This document shows positions 3,046-47,928 of a stretch of DNA of 54,924 nucleotides, piece by piece. The notes beneath the pieces are model-generated. The model made no database searches, was not told the origin of the DNA, and was given only the letters and a program-made list of their open reading frames with translations. The stretch is taken from positions 1 through 54,924 of IMG/VR virus record IMGVR_UViG_3300026484_000313; one strand, given 5' to 3'. Source of the stretch: a virus. A program made the translations under genes and the position numbers. How positions within the stretch are numbered: position 1 is the first letter of the stretch; each line of letters opens with the position of its first letter.

Positions 3046-3699
3046 TTATTTAATTGACAAATCTTGTTTAAGTAAAGATATAATAACGGGACAATATGGT
3101 TCAATTAATTCTAAGATAGCTTTTGCATATTCCCTAATTTCCTTTTGAGCATGTCTATCAAATCTTACCTTTAAAAAGTTTATAAGACTTCTTAAATTAA
3201 CTTGCCAGTAAAATTCGGTATAAAGTCCAAGAGGTAATATAAATCTTGCAATTTCCTTTCTAAAACCTTTTTGCAAAAGTGTTTCATAATAATCAAATAT
3301 TTTTTCAAGTAATGTATGTGCATAATGATAGTAAATATTTCCTTCTGTATCTTTCAAAAATCCCTCTAATTCTTCAGGAATATATACATCATCAATACTA
3401 GCTTTTGTGTATCTTCTACTAAGTTCTTGATATGAACCTATTCTATGTCTGAACCACTGACGAGCTATAAAAATAGGACATTTAACTTTAAATGTAAAAT
3501 TAACAAATTCAAATGAAGAAGTGGGATTACCAGCGTGTTCTTTATATAATCTTTTTAATAACTCTGTTTTCTTACTTTCAGGAAGATTTGTTTTGCCATA
3601 ACAAATAGATGCTACTTCTAAAATCACATCTTCCTTATCGGCTCTCAATAGTTTTACATACCCTTTGTCTAACACTTTTTTTTCTGCTAACGTTTTCAT
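3046..3699 (-). CDS. thyX: Flavin-dependent thymidylate synthase
   Basis: Makes dTMP from dUMP using FAD, NADPH and methylene-tetrahydrofolate. The 217-residue protein holds the ThyX signature RHR-x7-S: R84-H-R86 followed by IGSYQELSRRY. The conserved RQWFRHR context and the later FDRHAQKEIREYA helix, which binds substrate in this family, are also present. Length is typical of ThyX. The start at 3699 follows AAGGAGGTAAG. With dUTPase, dNMP kinase and NrdAB it forms a full phage route to dTTP. Confident. Confidence 0.95.
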   Translation of the reverse strand: MKTLAEKKVLDKGYVKLLRADKEDVILEVASICYGKTNLPESKKTELLKRLYKEHAGNPTSSFEFVNFTFKVKCPIFIARQWFRHRIGSYQELSRRYTKASIDDVYIPEELEGFLKDTEGNIYYHYAHTLLEKIFDYYETLLQKGFRKEIARFILPLGLYTEFYWQVNLRSLINFLKVRFDRHAQKEIREYAKAILELIEPYCPVIISLLKQDLSIK

Positions 3700-3705
3700 T
3701 TTAAC

Positions 3706-5670
3706 TTACCTCCTTTCAAGTTTTATTTTATACTTACCTATCTTTTGTTTGTTATTTATTAACAATATCTCTTCATCTATTTCAACATCTTCTTCCTCTA
3801 TTATATCATAACTTACCTTATATTTCAAGGATAATCTCTCTAAAAGAGCTAATAAATCTTCAATATATCCTTCACAAACTATTTCTGCATCATTTTGATT
3901 AATTACCATACTACTAATTTCCAAAGAATTTCCCCAAGAAACACCTATTTGTTGTTCAATAACAAAAGGTGCTTTTATAAAATCTTCAAAATATCTCATA
4001 TAATACTTTTCACAGAACAATTTCATATAAAAGATGATATCAAAAAGTTCATCTAATTTTGTATCAACAATAATACTATCATGCACAGAAGCTACTATTT
4101 TTGATTGATAACCAAAATCCTTTAAAAATCTCCAAAATTCTTTGATAATTACAAGAATTGTTTCAGAAGCAGTTGATTGTATTGGGAAATTCTGTGCATA
4201 TCTTTTAACTTTATTTTCATCAGAAACAAACAACTCAGGAGCAATTTTTATTATTCTCTTTAAAGGAGTTTTAATATATCTATTTTGTAAAACAGATACA
4301 TGTTGTCTTTGTATCCAATTAGCTACACCTTTGAATTCTTCAAAAAATTTATTTAAAATCTTTTTAGCTTCTTCTATATCTATACCTGTATTTTGTGCAA
4401 ATGTTTTAGAAGACATTCCGTAAAGAACTGCTAATACTAGTTGTTTCATTTTATTTCTCAAATCTTTTGGAACTTCATCATAAGGAATGTTATATACAAC
4501 AGAAGCCATTGTTTTATAAATATCTTTTCCATCTTTATATACTTGTATTAATTTTTCATCTCCAGAAAGAGATGCTATTGTTCTGGGCTCTGCTTGGCTG
4601 TTTTTGACTACAAATCCATTAGCAATAAATAAATGATTTCCTGACACTGATAAATCATAAACTTTTTGTCTTCCTAAATATTTTGTAGATTTTATTTTGT
4701 CAAAAAATAATGCATCTAAAGTTTTAAATGTTCCCTCATCAATTGATTTCATTGCTACATAATAACCATTATCTATAATATCCCCCATAGTAGCTAATAC
4801 ATATTTACCTTCATTATTAATGCACATAAATTTGTGATTTAAAGTGCATTTAATTTTAAATCCCTTTTCTGTTTCTATTTCATAAACATCTCCATATCCT
4901 CTATCCACAATACAATAAACATCAAGCCATTCACCTTTATCATTTAAAACCTTATCCTCTCCAGGAATAACTTTTATTAATTCTTTCCAACCTTTGTCTG
5001 TATAAACTAGAGTATCAGGAGTGAGACAGAAATCAGCTGATACAATAACTCCGTCCTTCCACCTACTTTCAATTAATCTTTTAAAGTTTTTATTAAATTC
5101 ATTACGAGAACCTAATGTATGGAAATATGAACTTAATCTCCCTGTTTTTGTTCCGCATATATTAAATGCAGTTCTAAATATCCAATTGTCATCTAATTCT
5201 TTAGGAATGCTATTTACATAACTTAATAATGCTTTGCTAAAAAATCTAAATTCTTTAAGTAATTCTAAAAATCTCCTTGCTTCTCCATCGTGCTTTTGAA
5301 TATATTCATCTAAATATTTAGTTGAAAATGAAATCAATCCAGACTTTGTTTTGTAAAGCGGTTTTATTCTCAATATTTTTGCTAAATCATTTAATTGTTG
5401 TGTTGATTTAATATTAAAATCTTTACCATATTTCTTTTTAAATTTCTTTACTGCCTCAAGCTCATTTATTTCATTTAAAATTTTTACAATTTTCTGTTCA
5501 ATCAATTTCTTTAGTCTATTAAATTTTTGCTCATTTATCTTAACCCCATTTACTTGCCAATCTGCTATCATTTTGACAATATCTGAATAGTGATTGTAAA
5601 TAAATAAATTCTTATTGTCTAAATTTTGTCTCAACCACTTTTTTGTTTTTCCAAGAGGATTTACAAACAT
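3706..5670 (-). CDS. Family A DNA polymerase (polymerase domain) interrupted by a mini-intein
   Basis: Replicative polymerase of the PolA type without its own exonuclease domain; the exonuclease is the adjacent upstream gene. The precursor is 654 residues. Residues 1-214 hold the thumb and the TGRLSS motif (176-180). Motif A (VSADF/SQAEPR) is split by an intein at residues 215-357. After the intein come the fingers helix (RNKMKQLVLAVLYG, motif B region) and motif C (ASVHDSIIVD). Removing the intein leaves about 511 residues. The start at 5670 follows GGGAGGAGCAAA and overlaps the exonuclease gene by 10 bp, so the two are probably made in step. Without splicing the catalytic motif A Asp would be separated from its context, so splicing is likely essential. 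Confidence 0.93.
   Translation of the reverse strand: MFVNPLGKTKKWLRQNLDNKNLFIYNHYSDIVKMIADWQVNGVKINEQKFNRLKKLIEQKIVKILNEINELEAVKKFKKKYGKDFNIKSTQQLNDLAKILRIKPLYKTKSGLISFSTKYLDEYIQKHDGEARRFLELLKEFRFFSKALLSYVNSIPKELDDNWIFRTAFNICGTKTGRLSSYFHTLGSRNEFNKNFKRLIESRWKDGVIVSADFCLTPDTLVYTDKGWKELIKVIPGEDKVLNDKGEWLDVYCIVDRGYGDVYEIETEKGFKIKCTLNHKFMCINNEGKYVLATMGDIIDNGYYVAMKSIDEGTFKTLDALFFDKIKSTKYLGRQKVYDLSVSGNHLFIANGFVVKNSQAEPRTIASLSGDEKLIQVYKDGKDIYKTMASVVYNIPYDEVPKDLRNKMKQLVLAVLYGMSSKTFAQNTGIDIEEAKKILNKFFEEFKGVANWIQRQHVSVLQNRYIKTPLKRIIKIAPELFVSDENKVKRYAQNFPIQSTASETILVIIKEFWRFLKDFGYQSKIVASVHDSIIVDTKLDELFDIIFYMKLFCEKYYMRYFEDFIKAPFVIEQQIGVSWGNSLEISSMVINQNDAEIVCEGYIEDLLALLERLSLKYKVSYDIIEEEDVEIDEEILLINNKQKIGKYKIKLERR
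4600..5028 (-). other. Mini-intein (143 residues) inside polymerase motif A
   Basis: Residues 215-357 of the polymerase precursor. It starts with Cys in CLTPDTLVYTDKGW (block A). Block B follows as a G-x-V-Y-E-I-x-T-x-x-G stretch ending in TLNHKF, with the TxxH-type histidine. The end is VYDLSVSGNHLFIANG (block F) then FVVKN, followed by Ser as the +1 extein residue. No LAGLIDADG or HNH motif is present and the length suits a mini-intein, so it cannot home by itself. The usual penultimate His is Lys here, a variation known in some active inteins. The flanking residues rejoin as SADF-SQAEPR, the expected family A motif A. Confidence 0.93.
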
Positions 5671-6869
5671 TTTGCTCCTCCCTCATACATTTTAATAAAT
5701 TCATTTTTTAAGTGTTTGTATAATTTGTATGTGTATATTGTATCATAACAAGCATATTCATACAAGATGTTTTCAGGGATATCCTTAAAAGATTTAAATT
5801 TTTTAAGTGGTTCATCCCAATCTTGCACTCTAAACAAAATCTTACAAAGTTCTTTTAACCCAAGCTTTTCAGTAATTGATTTATTATATACAAAATGTGC
5901 TAATACCTTTGTATCTATAACTTCAAAATTATAATGTGTTATAAACTTATCCCTAAATAAGAATGTAAAATCAAAAGGAAGGTTATGTCCTATTATCTTT
6001 TTATTTTTTACAAGATTATCAAATAACTCTTTAATCTCTGTCAGTTCTAGCTCAGACAAATTTCTTATAGAGAGATAATAAGCTTTATTTAAATGAGGAA
6101 AATACAGAGAAATACCTAAAAGCACATCTGTAAAATTAGTAGAACCAGTTTCAATATCTAAAACCATATACTCAAAATTTTGCTTCAACATATCTTGCAA
6201 GAATTTTACAATATCCTCTTTTGTGTTTAAAAGTATTTTGGGAATTTCTTCTTCTTGCACTTGAAGTTCATTTTCAATTTTCAAGATAGTTTCTAATCCC
6301 TTTCTCAAATAATCAGCATATTCTCTAATAATAAGTGTTTTTCGTGGATCAACTAAAGGAATTGCCAGAAACTTCTTTTTTTGCTTATTCTTTTCTAAAA
6401 CTAAAGATTTATACTTAAAAATATGATTTTTAGGTTCAGAGAGGTTAAGAATTGCTTTACAAACATATTTTCCAAAACATAATAAAATTGTATTTTCTTG
6501 AGCTAAATCAAATAGTTTGTTAAACAAATGCCACTTACAAAAAGAGATGCGTTTCTCAAGAGTTTCTTCTTTTAACTCAAACTTATAATGCTTTGATTGT
6601 TTGCAAGAAATAAGATAAATAAGCCCAATTTGGGATTTTGGTATATTTTTAATCTGCAAAAGATAAGAATACACAAGATTAAATCTTGGTTCTTGTTCTA
6701 ATGCTCTTAATACTTCAATCTCATCTTTATAAAGCCAGTCAAATATAAAAATATATTTTGCTTTTGATAAATTAATAGGAGCTACATATCTTTTCTCTAA
6801 AGGTAAAGATGATGATTTTGTAATAGGACATTTAGAACATACTTCCTCAATAGAATATTGAATTCTCAT
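5661..6869 (-). CDS. UDG-fold-like domain fused to a DEDDy 3'-5' exonuclease (polymerase proofreading subunit)
   Basis: 402 residues in two parts. Residues 1-190 resemble family 4 uracil-DNA glycosylases: Cys11-x2-Cys14, Cys89 in ISCK, Cys111 and the ILLCFGKYVCKAIL strand-helix match the Fe-S cysteines and core of that fold. The usual GEAPG catalytic motif is not seen, so glycosylase activity is doubtful. Residues 230-395 are a DnaQ-type exonuclease: D238-I-E240, D300 in GHNLPFD, and Y372-x3-D376. Translation is coupled to the polymerase gene (10-bp overlap), so the two probably form a split polymerase I-like enzyme. The exonuclease call is strong; the UDG-like call is by motif pattern only. 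Confidence 0.85.
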   Translation of the reverse strand: MRIQYSIEEVCSKCPITKSSSLPLEKRYVAPINLSKAKYIFIFDWLYKDEIEVLRALEQEPRFNLVYSYLLQIKNIPKSQIGLIYLISCKQSKHYKFELKEETLEKRISFCKWHLFNKLFDLAQENTILLCFGKYVCKAILNLSEPKNHIFKYKSLVLEKNKQKKKFLAIPLVDPRKTLIIREYADYLRKGLETILKIENELQVQEEEIPKILLNTKEDIVKFLQDMLKQNFEYMVLDIETGSTNFTDVLLGISLYFPHLNKAYYLSIRNLSELELTEIKELFDNLVKNKKIIGHNLPFDFTFLFRDKFITHYNFEVIDTKVLAHFVYNKSITEKLGLKELCKILFRVQDWDEPLKKFKSFKDIPENILYEYACYDTIYTYKLYKHLKNEFIKMYEGGAKCL

Positions 6870-38039: not shown

Positions 38040-41000
38040 ATGGCTTATGAAGTAAAAGTTGTTTTAAATCTAGAAGACAATGTTAAAAAGAAGTTAGAAA
38101 AAGTTTTACAAGATTTTAAGCAATTAGAAAGAACATTATCAAAAGTTGCAAATACATTTAATAAAATAACAAAGTCTTATGATAATTTAGCTTCTTCATT
38201 TGATAATTTAAATAAAATTATGAGTTTTACACAAAATAAGGTTTCTTCTGTATCTAAATCAGCTCAAAGCATAGCTGATAGATTAAGCAGAACATCTCAG
38301 GAAATAGATAAAACTTCTTCTAGTTTGCAAGCATTTACTAATATTTTAAAGAAAAATGAAAATGTAGTTGGTAATGTGAATACAGCTTACGAGCAATTTA
38401 TTAGCAATTTGAAAGAATTTTGGGATAGATTTGGTGCGGTTGCTGTTGCTTTTACTATTCTGTATAGGCTATTTAATTTAATTGAAAATGCAATTTCATC
38501 TGCAACAGATAGAATAATTCAAGGTATTCAATATTTTGATGATTATACATCTGCAATTAATAGATATGCTTTAATGTTGAAATTAGCAGTAAATAATGCA
38601 CTTTCATTCAGTCAAGCATTGAAATTAGCAACTGATACAATAAATGCTGTTAGATTAGCATCTCTTAATGCTTTAACTGGATTTCAAGAAGTAATTACAG
38701 GTTTAGATGAACTTGCACAACAAGGAATTTATATTTCCTCTGCACTTGCTAAACCATTTACAGATTTTGTAGATTTAACAGTTATGATTGCTCAAACAAC
38801 AGGTTCTACTTTATTGCAAGTAAGACAAGAGTTATCTGCTTTAATGACTGGTTCTGCAAGAGCATCTAACCAAATGGTTAGATTTCTTAAAAATTTAGGA
38901 ATGACTGACAAGCAAATTAAGGATTTATACAACAAACTTTTATCTTTGGATAATCCTTCAAAAAGATTTGCACAATTAATTATTTATCTTGATAAGTATA
39001 TTTCCCAATTTAAAGATAATTTATTTAACCTCAATTTTGATAGAGCAGTTAATAGATTTTCCAACTTGATAAATATTTTATCTTCTTTCTCAATTCAACT
39101 TGTGAATTTACAAAGAACAGGGAAAGCATTTAGCAATGTATTTGCTAAGATATTTAATGATTTATATCAGCGTTTTATCAATGTAGATATCTATAAAAAG
39201 ATAAATAAATTACAGCTTCAAATGTATCAAGCAATTATTGATGGTAATTTAACCACAGCTAAAGCTTTATTTGACAAAATCCAAAAATTACAAGCCCAAT
39301 TATTCACTCCTGAAGCTAAAACTTACATAAAAGATATGGCACATTTATACAATTTACTTGCAGATGCTCTTAAAGGAGTTGTAGCAGTTTTAGGAGCTGT
39401 TATATCATTTCTTTTAAAAGTTATTAGATATATAGATATCGTTTATCAAGTTATTAAAAAATTAGTTAGTATTTTATACGATGCTAATCCTGTATTAAAA
39501 ATATTTGTATCTATATTAGGACAAGTTTTAAGCACTGTTTTACCACTTGCAACTGCAATGTTTATTTTATATAAATCCGTTAGATTAGCTACAAATGCTC
39601 TTATAGCTTTTTATACATTGGGAGCCACAAGATTATTACCTTTATTAACAAGAATTAGAACAGCAATTGCAGGTATAGGAGCTGTTTTATCTGCTGAATT
39701 CTTACCTGTAATAGCTGGATTATTAACAGTAGTTGGTGGAATTTATGGTGCATTAAAAATAACTGGAAAATGGGAAGGAGTTAAAGACAAAATTGTTTCT
39801 GGTTTAAGAGAGATTAAAAACGAAATAGCAGAATTATTTGGATTTGGAGAAAAAGATATAAATAAATTATTTGGTAAAGGAGATTTTAAATCTTTAGTTG
39901 AAGCATTAGAGAGTGGTAGGGAAAATTTTGAAGCAATTATCAATTCTTACAAAGATTTAATAGGTAAATATAAAAGTGTTATATCACAATTACAGACTTT
40001 AGGTGTGGATAAAGTTTCTTACACTGCAATATTACCACCTCCTAGCACTTTTGAGAAGTTTAAAGCTTTTATGTCTAATATCAAAAAAGTTGCGAAAGAT
40101 ACATTTGATTTGGGAACTATAAATGTTATTCCGAAACTATCAATTGTAATAGATAAATATAAATTATTACAAGATGCAATTAATAAGACAGAGCAAGCAA
40201 TTAAGAGACTTATAAAAGGTTTTGTTGATGGTAAAGTTGATTTAAAAGAATTTAAATTTGAACTTTATGATTTGGTTTTACAATTATATTCTTTGAAAAA
40301 ACAATTAATTTTGTCTAAGTTAGGGTTTGATAAACTTTTAATGAAGATTGAAGATTTTAAAGCAAGTATTAATAATTTAAAAGTTGATAATCTTGATAAT
40401 GTAATTAACCAATTCAAATCTTTAAACAGCAAAATTAAACAAGTGTTAAATGAACTTGCTGGGAAAGATTATTTATCAAATGAATATTTGAAGCTTAAAA
40501 AGAAATTTAAAAGTTTATCTCAAAGTTTAGCTTCAGGATTGAGATCTGTTATAGATACTTTAAGAACTCAATTTAAAGATTTTAAAACTAAAGGTGTTTT
40601 TGATGAAAAAGAATTTAATAAATTACTCATAGATATTATTTTGGTTCAAAAAGCAATTTCAAAACTCAAAAACACTCCTCTGGAAAGCTTATCTAATAAA
40701 TTGCAAATGCAATTAAATATTTTAAAACAAAATATTATAAATTGGAGAATTACAATTAGTTTAGTAAATGAATTTAGAAATAAGATTGATGAGTTAAAGC
40801 AGAAATTAAAGGAATTATCAGATAACTTTAATAAAGGCATAAAGTTATCTGTATCTTATCAAGAACTTATAAATGCTAGAAATACATTAGCACAATTAAT
40901 TCAAGAAGCTGAAAACGGTAAATATGCTAAGTTGAAAATATTTGATGTTAAAGATATTAAGCAAGCTAAAAGACTGTTAGATGAATATGATAGAAAAATT

Positions 41001-41624
41001 AAAGAAATCCAAGAGCAAACAAAAGGCGGACAAGCTTTCTTTGATGTATTTAAAAAATATTCAGATAGAATGTATTTACAAATAAAAATGACAAAACAAT
41101 TTGCTCAGACAGCATTACAAACTATTAATGCTTTTGAACAGCAAACTGCTAATATTTTATATGATGCATTTACAGGAAGATTGAGAACTTTTAAAGACTA
41201 TGCAAATGCTTTATCTAATGCTTTATTACAAATTTTATCTCAAGTAATAGCTAAAATGATTGTTGCTAAAACTATCTCAGCTATAGTAGCAAGTGCAAAT
41301 GGAAATGTGCTTAAAGGTGGAATTAAATTTTTTGCAAATGGTGGAATTGTTAGAGAACCAACTATAGGTGTTGTTGGAGAAGGAAAATACAACGAAGCAA
41401 TAGTTCCTCTTCCTGATGGAAGACATATTCCAGCAATTGTAAAAGCTCCACAGCAACAACCAGTGCATAATAATATAGTTTTACAAATCCAAGCTATAGA
41501 TGCTCAATCAATTGTTGAATTTGAGCGAAGAACTGGAGCTATTTCTGGAATTGTTAGAGAAGCAATTACTAAAGATATGCAAAATAACGGAATGATCCGT
41601 CGTAGTATAAAATCATATTTTTAA
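38040..41624 (+). CDS. Tape measure protein
   Basis: 1194 residues, the longest complete gene. N-terminal coiled coil (about 1-120), hydrophobic segments near 135-150, 440-465 and 480-580 that may cross the membrane on DNA entry, long helical repeats to 1080, and a C-terminal GGIVREPTIGVVGEGKYNEAIVPLPDG segment typical of tape measures. At about 1.5 angstrom per residue, the family rule, it suggests a tail near 180 nm. Its place after the chaperone pair is diagnostic. Confident. Confidence 0.92.
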   Translation: MAYEVKVVLNLEDNVKKKLEKVLQDFKQLERTLSKVANTFNKITKSYDNLASSFDNLNKIMSFTQNKVSSVSKSAQSIADRLSRTSQEIDKTSSSLQAFTNILKKNENVVGNVNTAYEQFISNLKEFWDRFGAVAVAFTILYRLFNLIENAISSATDRIIQGIQYFDDYTSAINRYALMLKLAVNNALSFSQALKLATDTINAVRLASLNALTGFQEVITGLDELAQQGIYISSALAKPFTDFVDLTVMIAQTTGSTLLQVRQELSALMTGSARASNQMVRFLKNLGMTDKQIKDLYNKLLSLDNPSKRFAQLIIYLDKYISQFKDNLFNLNFDRAVNRFSNLINILSSFSIQLVNLQRTGKAFSNVFAKIFNDLYQRFINVDIYKKINKLQLQMYQAIIDGNLTTAKALFDKIQKLQAQLFTPEAKTYIKDMAHLYNLLADALKGVVAVLGAVISFLLKVIRYIDIVYQVIKKLVSILYDANPVLKIFVSILGQVLSTVLPLATAMFILYKSVRLATNALIAFYTLGATRLLPLLTRIRTAIAGIGAVLSAEFLPVIAGLLTVVGGIYGALKITGKWEGVKDKIVSGLREIKNEIAELFGFGEKDINKLFGKGDFKSLVEALESGRENFEAIINSYKDLIGKYKSVISQLQTLGVDKVSYTAILPPPSTFEKFKAFMSNIKKVAKDTFDLGTINVIPKLSIVIDKYKLLQDAINKTEQAIKRLIKGFVDGKVDLKEFKFELYDLVLQLYSLKKQLILSKLGFDKLLMKIEDFKASINNLKVDNLDNVINQFKSLNSKIKQVLNELAGKDYLSNEYLKLKKKFKSLSQSLASGLRSVIDTLRTQFKDFKTKGVFDEKEFNKLLIDIILVQKAISKLKNTPLESLSNKLQMQLNILKQNIINWRITISLVNEFRNKIDELKQKLKELSDNFNKGIKLSVSYQELINARNTLAQLIQEAENGKYAKLKIFDVKDIKQAKRLLDEYDRKIKEIQEQTKGGQAFFDVFKKYSDRMYLQIKMTKQFAQTALQTINAFEQQTANILYDAFTGRLRTFKDYANALSNALLQILSQVIAKMIVAKTISAIVASANGNVLKGGIKFFANGGIVREPTIGVVGEGKYNEAIVPLPDGRHIPAIVKAPQQQPVHNNIVLQIQAIDAQSIVEFERRTGAISGIVREAITKDMQNNGMIRRSIKSYF

Positions 41625-41649
41625 TTAACAAATTTGCAGAGGTTATTAG

Positions 41650-42216
41650 ATGTTAGTATATCCTGAATATCCATTACCAAATACTCCAATAAAATGTATA
41701 ACAATACATGATATACTTAAGAGTGAGATTTCTTTTGGATTTACATATAAAAGAAGACGAAGTTTTAGAAGAAAAAGACAGTTTATTTTATCATATTCTT
41801 GGCTAAAACCTAACGAAGTTGAAATATTACAAAACTTTTACAATGAAGTTCAAGAAAGTGATGGATATTTTTACTATATATCTCATACAAAATATTCTTG
41901 GAAAAATGAATATGTTGCAAAAGTAATTGATACATCTGTTATTCAATATGAACTCCCATTATATAAATGGGAAGAGTTAATTATTTATGTTAATGGTGTG
42001 GAAGTATATGATTATGAAATCATAAATAGCTATCCAAGAGCAGTTGTTAAGTTTAATTCATCTTTGAATTTAGGTGATTTAATTACTTGCTCTTTTAAAA
42101 ATGCAAATGTATGTTTAATATGTGAGTTTGATGAAAATTCTATGGGATTAGAACATTTAGTAGCTGGTTATTCTAATATTGGAGATTTAAAAATAAATGA
42201 AGTATTAAATTATTAA
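41650..42216 (+). CDS. Minor tail protein after the tape measure (distal-tail-like)
   Basis: 188 residues. FRRKRQFILSYSWLKPNEVEILQNFYNEVQESDGYFYYI resembles the start of tail proteins that read 'x-F-x-x-x-x-x-x-L-x-x-F-Y-x-x-R-x-G'. Its second half is beta-rich. The N-terminal part is similar to residues 25-80 of the protein at 43433, so the two may share an ancestor. The location right after the tape measure suggests the distal tail or tip. The exact family is not certain. Confidence 0.6.
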   Translation: MLVYPEYPLPNTPIKCITIHDILKSEISFGFTYKRRRSFRRKRQFILSYSWLKPNEVEILQNFYNEVQESDGYFYYISHTKYSWKNEYVAKVIDTSVIQYELPLYKWEELIIYVNGVEVYDYEIINSYPRAVVKFNSSLNLGDLITCSFKNANVCLICEFDENSMGLEHLVAGYSNIGDLKINEVLNY

Positions 42217-44410: not shown

Positions 44411-44935
44411 ATGATTTCAGAAGAGATATATGAACAATTTAAAAAAATTGTTGCTGATATATGTTTTCTTTTAGAAATGGAAATAACAAATACAGATAAT
44501 TCTAAGAAAACGGTTTATTATACTTCTTATGATATTCCTGTAGTTGATATAAATACAAATGTGGTTTATCAACCTTTTGCATTTGATATAGAAAATTTTA
44601 GTTATGGTTCTGATTTGTCTATAGATAATTTAACAGTAAAATTGGATAATACTAAATTACAACAGGTAGGGATTTTTTTAAATAAGGATCAAAGAGGAAA
44701 TAATGTAAAAGTAAAGTTGGCTATATTAAATGAATTTGGTAATGCAATTGCAACTTTGGAATTTTTCTCTGGAAAAATCTCTTCTGTTGAAATAAATGAA
44801 AAAGAAGCAAGGATAACTATAAAACATGATTTGTTATTTTGGAATAATAGGACATTAAGAATTCACACATATGATTTATTTCCTAATCAAAAAGATTTAA
44901 ATAATACTACACTTATGAAGTGGGGTAGAAGTTAG
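44411..44935 (+). CDS. Tail tip protein, hub-like (DUF2163 / gpL-like, tentative)
   Basis: 174 residues. Pattern YYTSYDIPVVDINTNVVYQPFAFDIENFSYGSDLSIDNLTVKLDN, then DQRGNNVKVKLAIL and LEFFSGKISSVEI resembles tail proteins in which 'yyt...g..Y.p......' leads to a 'dlrG..V.v......G.v' domain. It precedes the gpJ-like gene with a weak site, TTAGAAT. Likely anchors the tip to the tube. Moderate confidence. Confidence 0.58.
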   Translation: MISEEIYEQFKKIVADICFLLEMEITNTDNSKKTVYYTSYDIPVVDINTNVVYQPFAFDIENFSYGSDLSIDNLTVKLDNTKLQQVGIFLNKDQRGNNVKVKLAILNEFGNAIATLEFFSGKISSVEINEKEARITIKHDLLFWNNRTLRIHTYDLFPNQKDLNNTTLMKWGRS

Positions 44936-44937
44936 TT

Positions 44938-47283
44938 ATGGGTTGGTTTAGTAAAATAACACATTCAATTGGTAAATTTTTTAGTTCTACAGTAGGTAAA
45001 ATAGTAAAGATAGGATTAGAAGTCGCAGCCTTAGTTGCATTAGCAGTTGGAGCTACAGTTGTAGCTGCAGTTATTGGACTTGGTTTAATGCTTGTTGGTT
45101 ATTGTGAAGGTAAGTATTTAGAAGATAGTGCCCAAAATATGGATAATGATATTGAAAATAATGGGCATTTATTGAATACATTAGCAAATGTAAATAACCC
45201 TATTCCTCTTTTATATGGAACAGTTAGGGTAGGTGGAAATGTAGTTTTTCAAAAGACGGCCGGGGAAAAGAATAAATATTTATATAGAGCAATGACTTTA
45301 GGAGAAGGAAGATTAGGAAAAATTCACAATATTTTAATTGATGATAAACCTATTACTCCTGCAATTTTAGTTAAAAAAAGCAATAATGAATGGGTATATA
45401 AAATAATTTCAAGTGATATAAATGCAGTTAAAGTTACTTGTAAGTTAGGTGGAGTAAAAGATTTTGAGGTAAATAATGCTGTTATAAAATTAGGACAATC
45501 AAAGGAAATTGGTAGTTATGTTTATGATGAAAATGAAGGTTGGTTTTTTCTAGCTCATACTGTTCGTGTAGTAAATATAAAAGTATATGCTGAATTTTTT
45601 AAAGATGATCACGGGGATTTATATCTTAAAGTGTATATAGTTGATTTATTAGGTAAAAATAACATGCATTTTAATAATGTTATAATTACTTCATATTCTA
45701 CAGATAACGGAAATACTTGGAATGTATGTAAAAAAAAGTATCTAGATAAATTAGATATAATCTATTTTGATGGTGAAAATTTATATAAATTAGATAAGAA
45801 TGTTAATAAAACATTTGAAGATAATTGGATACTTATTGATTGCAATGACAACTTATTTAAAGAATTTGTTGATAATGGATTTATGGTAGAAACTTATAGT
45901 GGAAGTGATAAATACGAAAAAGCTTTTAATATGTTAAGAGAAAGACATGTTGGATTATTATTAGTTAAATTAACTTATGATAGCAAAGTTTGGACAAATA
46001 TACCAACTATAACAGTTATTATAGATGGTAAGCAAGCATCAACTCCTTTTAATAAAAAAGTTCATACTTTAAAAAATCCAGTTGAAGTTTTATATGATTA
46101 TATGACTAATCCTACATATGGATTAGGATTATCTGTAGATAGGCTAGATTTAATCTTAGATAATAATGGTATCGCAATTGATGGTAGTTGGAAATTGTGT
46201 TATGACTATTGTGAGCAGAAAGGTTTTAAATTTGAAGGTATAATAAAATCAGGTAAAGTAATAGATATTATCAAAAGAATTTTAAATCATTTTAGAGGAG
46301 AAATGGTTTATTATTTTGGAGTGTTTGGTATTATTTTTAAAGATTTACCTGTGGAAATTCAGAAAGGATTAACTTATCCTGATGTTATAGAAATAGAAGA
46401 GGGTAATCCTTCATTTACAGTTAATTATCCTGACATAACCACAATGTATGATCAAGTGGAAGTTTCTTTTATAGATCCAGCTCTTAATTATAAAGTAAAT
46501 AAAATAAAAATACCTGAAAATCCTAAAACAGATAAACAACCTAATAGAACTACATTATCTCTTTATGGTTGTGATTATCCTCAAGCTAAATTACTAGGAA
46601 CCTATTTCCTTGAAAGAAGTAGATTAGGTATTACAGTATCTTTCATAACTTCTCATAAATATATAGATTTACAATTAGGACAAGCATTCAAATTAACTAA
46701 TAAGGCTTGGGGAATTGAAGAACAATGGTTTAGATGCACTTCTATTAAACCTACAATTGATGGAAAATTGCAAATTTCAGCAATAATAGAAGATGAAAAA
46801 TTATATGATGATGTTTATGAACCTTATGTATATGATATAGATTTAACAGAATTTTTATCTCCGTTTGAGTTATTACACGCAAATGTAAGCAGTATCAATG
46901 CATTAAGTATTAATAACGCAAAATCATATGTAATTTCTTTATTTAATTCTACTGGATTAAAATATTATAGTATTGCAGAACCTTCAGACTCAGATGGATA
47001 TGTATCTAATAATACTGTTGTTATATACCCAAAATCTTCAGTAATATTTACTGTTGATATTTCAAATCCTGATGGTTCAGCTCCATCAAAATTTGCAATT
47101 GGTGTAGTTCCTAATGTAAATACGGTTAAATTATATTATTCTTATGATAAATCTAATTGGATTTCTTATAATCAAGAGTCTATAATAAATAATAGTTCAG
47201 GAAATAAAAAAATATATGTGAAAATTGAAAATATAACTAATGAACCTATATTTATCAGTAATTTAGTTGTAGTCCATGAATAA
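44938..47283 (+). CDS. Central tail tip protein (gpJ-like)
   Basis: 781 residues. The N-terminal 20-55 is hydrophobic and glycine/alanine-rich (IGLEVAALVALAVGATVVAAVIGLGLMLVG), as in many tip proteins. Then come PIPLLYGTVRVGGNVVFQ, MTLGEGRLGKIHNILID, the NPVEVLYDYMTNPTYGLGL block, FKFEGIIKSGKVIDIIKRIL and TTMYDQVEVSFIDP, which follow the phage tail tip attachment family order. The C-terminus has beta-sandwich domains. It forms the central hub and spike that touches the host. Confident in family. Confidence 0.82.
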   Translation: MGWFSKITHSIGKFFSSTVGKIVKIGLEVAALVALAVGATVVAAVIGLGLMLVGYCEGKYLEDSAQNMDNDIENNGHLLNTLANVNNPIPLLYGTVRVGGNVVFQKTAGEKNKYLYRAMTLGEGRLGKIHNILIDDKPITPAILVKKSNNEWVYKIISSDINAVKVTCKLGGVKDFEVNNAVIKLGQSKEIGSYVYDENEGWFFLAHTVRVVNIKVYAEFFKDDHGDLYLKVYIVDLLGKNNMHFNNVIITSYSTDNGNTWNVCKKKYLDKLDIIYFDGENLYKLDKNVNKTFEDNWILIDCNDNLFKEFVDNGFMVETYSGSDKYEKAFNMLRERHVGLLLVKLTYDSKVWTNIPTITVIIDGKQASTPFNKKVHTLKNPVEVLYDYMTNPTYGLGLSVDRLDLILDNNGIAIDGSWKLCYDYCEQKGFKFEGIIKSGKVIDIIKRILNHFRGEMVYYFGVFGIIFKDLPVEIQKGLTYPDVIEIEEGNPSFTVNYPDITTMYDQVEVSFIDPALNYKVNKIKIPENPKTDKQPNRTTLSLYGCDYPQAKLLGTYFLERSRLGITVSFITSHKYIDLQLGQAFKLTNKAWGIEEQWFRCTSIKPTIDGKLQISAIIEDEKLYDDVYEPYVYDIDLTEFLSPFELLHANVSSINALSINNAKSYVISLFNSTGLKYYSIAEPSDSDGYVSNNTVVIYPKSSVIFTVDISNPDGSAPSKFAIGVVPNVNTVKLYYSYDKSNWISYNQESIINNSSGNKKIYVKIENITNEPIFISNLVVVHE

Positions 47284-47292
47284 GAGGGCAAA

Positions 47293-47928
47293 ATGATTAA
47301 AGGTGCTGTAGATGGGATTGCTAGTTCTAACCATACTCACTCTCCTTTAGACATAACTCCACAAGGGAAGAGCTCTGGATTAGACGCAGATAAAGTTGAT
47401 GGATATGATGTTGATGATGCTTTAGACACTGGAGTATTATGGACTGCAGATAAAATAAAAGATGAACTTTCTAACAAAATGAATATATCTACTTATGATA
47501 CTGATAATGATGGAGTTGTAGAAAAAGCAGATTTTGCATCTACATCTGGAAACGCGGATACATTAGATGGAATGCACGCCTCAGATTTACTAGATAAAAA
47601 TACATATGATACTAATAATGATGGAAAAATTGATTTTGATGCTCTTTCCAATGATGGACTGATAAAAATAAATTCTGACTATACTTTAACTGAAAATGAT
47701 TTTTGTGTATTAGTTGATGCTTCCACATCTGAAATAACTATAACTTTACCTAAATCTGCATTAATAGGAAAACAATTTGTTATTAAAAAAATTGACAATT
47801 CTTCAAATGCAGTAAATATAGTTATAGACAGTAATACATATATAGATGGTAGTTTGTCCTGCACTTTAAATAATCAATACGATTTTATAAGAGTGATTTA
47901 TGATGGAAATAATTATTATAAGATTTAA
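47293..47928 (+). CDS. Tail fibre protein with calcium-binding-like repeats
   Basis: 211 residues. Holds SSNHTHSPLDI, GKSSGLDADKVDGYD, then two EF-hand-like loops TYDTDNDGVVEKADFA and TYDTNNDGKIDFDAL separated by GNADTLDGMHASDL. The pattern is common in phage tail fibres, and D-x-D-x-D-G loops may bind calcium. The C-terminus is beta-rich (ITITLPKSALIGKQFVIKKI). It follows the gpJ-like gene directly and is probably a short fibre on the tip. No assembly gene adjoins it. Confidence 0.75.
   Translation: MIKGAVDGIASSNHTHSPLDITPQGKSSGLDADKVDGYDVDDALDTGVLWTADKIKDELSNKMNISTYDTDNDGVVEKADFASTSGNADTLDGMHASDLLDKNTYDTNNDGKIDFDALSNDGLIKINSDYTLTENDFCVLVDASTSEITITLPKSALIGKQFVIKKIDNSSNAVNIVIDSNTYIDGSLSCTLNNQYDFIRVIYDGNNYYKI

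Follow-up and report, generated by a model that had tools for sequence, protein, structure and literature searches.

How a phage DNA polymerase comes to carry an extra domain inside its own catalytic motif, and why the phage keeps it, is the question raised by this locus. The window, meaning the whole 54,924-nucleotide stretch of virus record IMGVR_UViG_3300026484_000313 that was analysed, holds a 654-aa precursor ORF at 3706-5670 on the minus strand, which the original prediction read as a family A DNA polymerase with a mini-intein in motif A. The sequence comparisons reported here make it very probable that the element is a class 1-type mini-intein in motif A, likely the descendant of a homing intein that lost its LAGLIDADG endonuclease. 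The features on which the argument depends are as follows.

5661..6869, minus strand: separate 3'-5' exonuclease ORF, upstream of the polymerase ORF (PF01612, E=2.6e-13)
5029..5670, minus strand: 214-aa N-extein with the first part of the polymerase domain; its last residues are SADF, which include the catalytic Asp213 of motif A
4600..5028, minus strand: mini-intein, 143 aa, precursor residues 215-357 (matches to PF14890, TIGR01445, TIGR01443 and 7cfv)
5026..5028, minus strand: intein Cys1 codon, predicted first-step nucleophile
4600..4605, minus strand: block G codons, penultimate Lys142 and terminal Asn143
4597..4599, minus strand: Ser+1 codon, predicted second-step nucleophile and also the motif A Ser of the polymerase
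3706..4599, minus strand: C-extein, remainder of the family A polymerase domain, 297 aa plus stop (PF00476)

The insertion and its host polymerase

Translation of 4600-5028 on the minus strand gives CLTPDTLVYTDKG...YDLSVSGNHLFIANGFVVKN, a 143-aa element running from CLTPDTLVYT to GFVVKN and flanked in the 654-aa ORF by IVSADF before and SQAEPRT after. The absence of an intein-profile match at this position had been named beforehand as a result that would speak against a mini-intein, and three models were found to match it above their cut-offs. These were the Pfam model PF14890 Intein_splicing (E=1.6e-15, 57.7 bits vs cut-off 35.8) and the NCBIfam models TIGR01445 intein_Nterm (42.2 bits vs 24.5), which starts at intein residue 1, and TIGR01443 intein_Cterm (31.8 bits vs 15.6), which ends at intein residue 143. 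Because the profiles exceed their cut-offs with exact ends, a chance motif match is ruled out, and the assignment of a mini-intein to 4600-5028 is borne out. Additionally, the top sequence match among solved structures was another intein (7cfv, E=7e-9). No further intein matches were found in the whole window, leaving the polymerase intein as the sole match.

The exteins match the family A DNA polymerases (PF00476, E=3.8e-58), with the motif A and motif C aspartates at Asp213 and Asp531 in precursor numbering, and the C-extein holds Ser+1, the remainder of motif A (SQAEPR) and motif C (VHDS). Alignment of the C-extein to Taq begins at S612, and to Klenow chains at residue 384, which we take to be S707 of E. 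coli Pol I. This alignment confirms that the site lies in motif A, as proposed, and in Taq numbering puts the insertion between Y611 and S612, a single residue beyond D610, the catalytic Asp of motif A. The motif A strand belongs to the polymerase palm, and an interruption there would imply an inactive enzyme. Since the insert follows residues equivalent to Taq D610-Y611, it is a sound inference that the polymerase precursor would be inactive before splicing.

Joining the flanks without the intein gives a computed length of 511 aa, which agrees by sequence with the spliced length of about 511 residues that had been expected. This product would be the polymerase part only, because the exonuclease half is a separate ORF in this phage. 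The exonuclease and polymerase ORFs share 10 nt, and GGGAGGAG lies ahead of the polymerase start ATG; perhaps the two polymerase-half ORFs are translationally coupled. Exonuclease and polymerase are fused in the closest relative described below (one ORF of 1308 aa at locus L006, vs two ORFs in the window phage), and the split in the window phage looks like a real gene fission. As a separate observation, the N-terminal region of the exonuclease ORF (5661-6869, minus strand) resembles a uracil-DNA-glycosylase-type domain by eye, with no family match confirming it, and the polymerase of another virus, at locus L044, matches PF03167 over cut-off.

Splicing residues and the penultimate lysine

The catalytic set of the intein consists of Cys1, Thr62 and His65, Asp125 and His132, Asn143 and Ser+1. 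Block B is Thr62-Leu-Asn-His65 (TxxH), block F holds Asp125 and His132, and the only class 1 catalytic position that is off-consensus is G6, where Lys142 replaces the usual His. The pattern is that of class 1 and not class 3, because Cys1 is present and there is an Asp at F:4. A class 3 intein would have no nucleophile at residue 1, a Cys at F:4 and the WCT triplet, and was ruled out by Cys1 and by Asp125 at F:4. A reading as a BIL was also ruled out, given that the C-terminal Asn and Ser+1 are present as in inteins, whereas BILs lack a +1 nucleophile (PMC4031507).

These residues are strong grounds for predicting that the 654-aa precursor splices itself. In the proposed mechanism, Cys1 would attack the Phe214-Cys1 bond with the aid of Thr62 and His65 of block B and Asp125 of block F, and the N-extein would then pass to Ser+1. 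Asn143 would cyclise with the aid of His132 of block F, with Lys142 standing where His is usual, and the exteins would be ligated to give SADF-SQAEPR in a 511-aa polymerase subunit.

The one departure from consensus had been pointed out before, and the intein does end in Lys142-Asn143. About 5% of functional inteins carry a penultimate residue other than His, and restoring the His helps some inteins and harms others (PMC4031507). Some mycobacteriophage class 1 inteins have a penultimate Gly, Lys or Ser, and the one that was tested with a penultimate Gly spliced completely whereas its His mutant was slow (PMC5050341). Because the Gly form spliced fully and the His form more slowly, the missing penultimate His does not mean slow splicing. 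Cyclisation of Asn143 could nevertheless be slower with a Lys at G6. The Lys-Asn ending is also found in a viral polymerase intein (locus L042) that keeps its HNH domain, so the Lys is not tied to loss of the homing endonuclease (HEN) or to domestication. A further case is the UvrD-like helicase at 5219-6058 (minus strand) of locus L025 in IMGVR_UViG_3300010339_000008, with a 280-aa intein-like insert that ends VVVKN^CQ and has a penultimate Lys. Shared with L042, L025 and mycobacteriophage inteins, the penultimate Lys of the window intein is not exceptional.

A relative with an endonuclease and the persistence of the element

When IMG/VR was scanned with the window intein, one contig was found, IMGVR_UViG_3300026512_000011 (G001), with the matching intein in its polymerase at locus L006. 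This intein occupies the same site (SAD[FL]^C ... N^SQAEPR), is 78% identical in amino acids over the splicing domain and is also without the penultimate His, having Ser where the window has Lys. The two differ in size, as the relative's intein is 401 aa and carries LAGLIDADG_3 in the extra part of the protein (27.7 bits vs cut-off 22.5), while the profile search matched no endonuclease family in the 143 aa of the window intein. The earlier description of an element without an endonuclease thus stands.

The two phages are largely collinear in gene content, and the identity of the splicing domain (0.78) is the highest of their shared sequences, the other gene pairs lying at 0.27-0.66. The first 70 residues of the intein are 0.91 alike. 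Where residues are identical, codon identity reaches 0.71 in the intein and is mostly 0.50-0.65 elsewhere (binomial p ~0.009 for the intein vs a baseline of 0.59), and it is also high, at 0.69, in the N-extein, which adjoins the intein. No clear co-conversion tract was seen around the insertion between G001 and the window. The high likeness of the inteins fits homing transfer after the phages diverged, a reading for which the codon signal is weak and to whose evidence constraint could contribute. By the Nei-Gojobori method dN/dS is about 0.24 in the intein and 0.36 and 0.68 in the flanks, with synonymous sites strongly diverged, and the value of about 0.24 indicates that the splicing domain is under purifying selection.

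The same dN/dS value, together with the open frame and the other catalytic residues, which are all intact, bears on whether the element is dead or merely cleaves. Lys142 would then impair step 3 and leave the polymerase in separate or unspliced pieces that work as fragments or not at all. His at G6 is indeed missing, and the polymerase gene has already been split once, into exonuclease and polymerase ORFs. However, cleavage within motif A would disrupt the active site of the palm, and the roughly 5% of functional inteins that lack His at G6 (PMC4031507) show that the residue can be dispensed with. We regard a dead or cleaving element as very improbable.

The relative also bears on a possible artefact, in which a chimeric assembly, or the joining of some other Hint-type domain (BIL or hedgehog-like) to a polymerase, produced the locus. 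In favour of this reading, the virus record of the window comes from metagenome data. However, an independent contig has the same element at the same position with diverged flanks, the frame is kept over both junctions, and Ser+1 and the C-terminal Asn are as in inteins and not as in BILs (PMC4031507). This explanation can be given almost no credence.

A functional mini-intein of homing origin remains the preferred reading, and the window copy is best read as the HEN-deleted form, with the direction taken from the homing-cycle model, as two sequences cannot polarise the change. In that cycle, mini-inteins are the expected end after HEN loss (PMC8966425). The intein would have reached its site by homing and would persist because precise removal is rare, and the need for an active polymerase would lead selection to keep it splicing.

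The original prediction went further in suggesting that splicing could act as a timing or environmental switch. Such a domesticated element would splice slowly or conditionally (through Lys142, redox or temperature) and so delay the polymerase until a given stage of infection. The insert adjoins the catalytic Asp and would almost surely leave the precursor inactive, penultimate variants do alter the splicing rate of a mycobacteriophage intein (PMC5050341), and no endonuclease remains to drive spread. However, in that same mycobacteriophage intein it was the change to His that slowed a Gly form that spliced completely (PMC5050341), the HNH-bearing L042 intein has the same Lys-Asn end, and NpuDnaE, among the closest inteins in sequence and fold, is also without the penultimate His. 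Mini-inteins are in any case already expected as the end of the homing cycle (PMC8966425). The data gave no support to the switch, which we consider unlikely, and the homing cycle, with a HEN-bearing relative at the same site, accounts for the element.

Some other features of G001 were observed along the way. A 1125-aa ORF at 44439-47813 (L021), by eye an anaerobic ribonucleotide reductase (NrdD), contains two additional intein matches, of which one is large and the other small. Additionally, adjacent ORFs of 346 and 290 aa at 39954-41848 both resemble the ThyX-like protein of the window (3046-3699), suggesting a tandem duplication.

Motif A in other viruses and comparison with known inteins

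The proposed comparison of related phages showed the site both with and without an insertion. The site is filled in G001, L039, L042 and L044 and empty in L002 (SCDFSQQEPR), as well as in L003 and L013-L017. Inteins at the D[FY]^SQ point were found in L039, in L041, L042 and L043 (near-identical inteins on three contigs), in L044 and in Streptococcus phage vB_SagM-GXN1, and HNH_3 scored over cut-off in those of L039, L042 and L044. The junction pattern ANG...N^SQxE returned no polymerase intein, whereas a looser pattern recovered them. A search with the L042 intein, with a junction check on 49 loci, gave no motif A polymerase intein beyond the three known contigs, and two genome-contig scans gave no cellular relatives of the polymerase or the intein.

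The other motif A inteins are larger than that of the window (288-472 aa vs 143 aa) and only distantly like it. The L042 intein is 28% identical to it over 119 residues, the GXN1 intein gives short matches only, and the L044 intein has Cys+1 where the window has Ser+1. The GXN1 intein (472 aa, L004 2663-4078) lies at the same motif A site in a polymerase gene that is unannotated in its record, ends in Gln rather than Asn, and matches TIGR01445 and TIGR01443, with an HNH-like stretch visible by eye only. Since these inteins are so remote from that of the window, the site has been invaded repeatedly or a very long time ago, and the distribution indicates that motif A is a recurrent intein insertion site. 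Few stretches of the gene are as conserved as motif A, which would make it a durable homing target and the insertion point one of the usual kind. A bolder reading holds that unrelated lineages (LAGLIDADG, HNH and HEN-less) converged on motif A in viral family A polymerases and that, in the HEN-less form, the penultimate Lys sets the pace of splicing and thereby makes replication in this phage wait for it; we think it improbable.

Two other viral polymerases were noted at this stage. Bacillus phage Adastra was rejected as an intein case, as its polymerase is interrupted by an annotated intron with a homing endonuclease gene and its motif A is intact. In Microcystis phage Mvi-JY20 (L005 3229-3627) an intein-like insert of 133 aa, with intein profile scores below cut-off, interrupts a polymerase annotated as a hypothetical protein; its position, GRCSS^SSPN, is a second family A polymerase site.

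The open-access literature records phage inteins in PolB, terminase, RNR and dCTP deaminase, and bacterial PolA is named among the intein hosts in a review (PMC5874633). No description of the motif A intein site was found in the open-access papers searched, and no claim of first discovery is made. With this locus a phage family A polymerase joins the known intein hosts, and the two collinear phages, with a HEN-bearing and a HEN-less copy at the same position, form a pair that exemplifies a late stage of the homing cycle. Distantly related HNH inteins occur at the same motif A point as this matched pair. The element is also a compact natural intein without the penultimate His that could be used in splicing assays.

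AlphaFold2 models of the intein had low confidence (mean pLDDT 65 with 2 sequences and 60.5 with 11), especially in the C-terminal block, and have no bearing on active-site detail. The listed Foldseek PDB matches of these low-confidence models were inteins and a few hedgehog autoprocessing domains, which have the same fold, and the best was NpuDnaE (TM 0.63-0.65 with the second model, mean pLDDT 60.5); at this model quality they are suggestive of a Hint fold. In sequence and fold together, the best solved matches are NpuDnaE (4kl5), Spl DnaX (7cfv) and NpuDnaB (4o1r). NpuDnaE shares the lack of the penultimate His and is naturally split; all three differ from the window intein in host protein and site and have low sequence identity to it. 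The mycobacteriophage class 1 inteins with a penultimate Gly, Lys or Ser are likewise phage-borne, but they are hosted by TerL, RDF and other proteins and several keep the endonuclease (PMC5050341). Compared with these systems the window intein is of an ordinary type: a mini-intein that interrupts a phage replication enzyme at a catalytic site where inteins recur, and that has a HEN-bearing sister.
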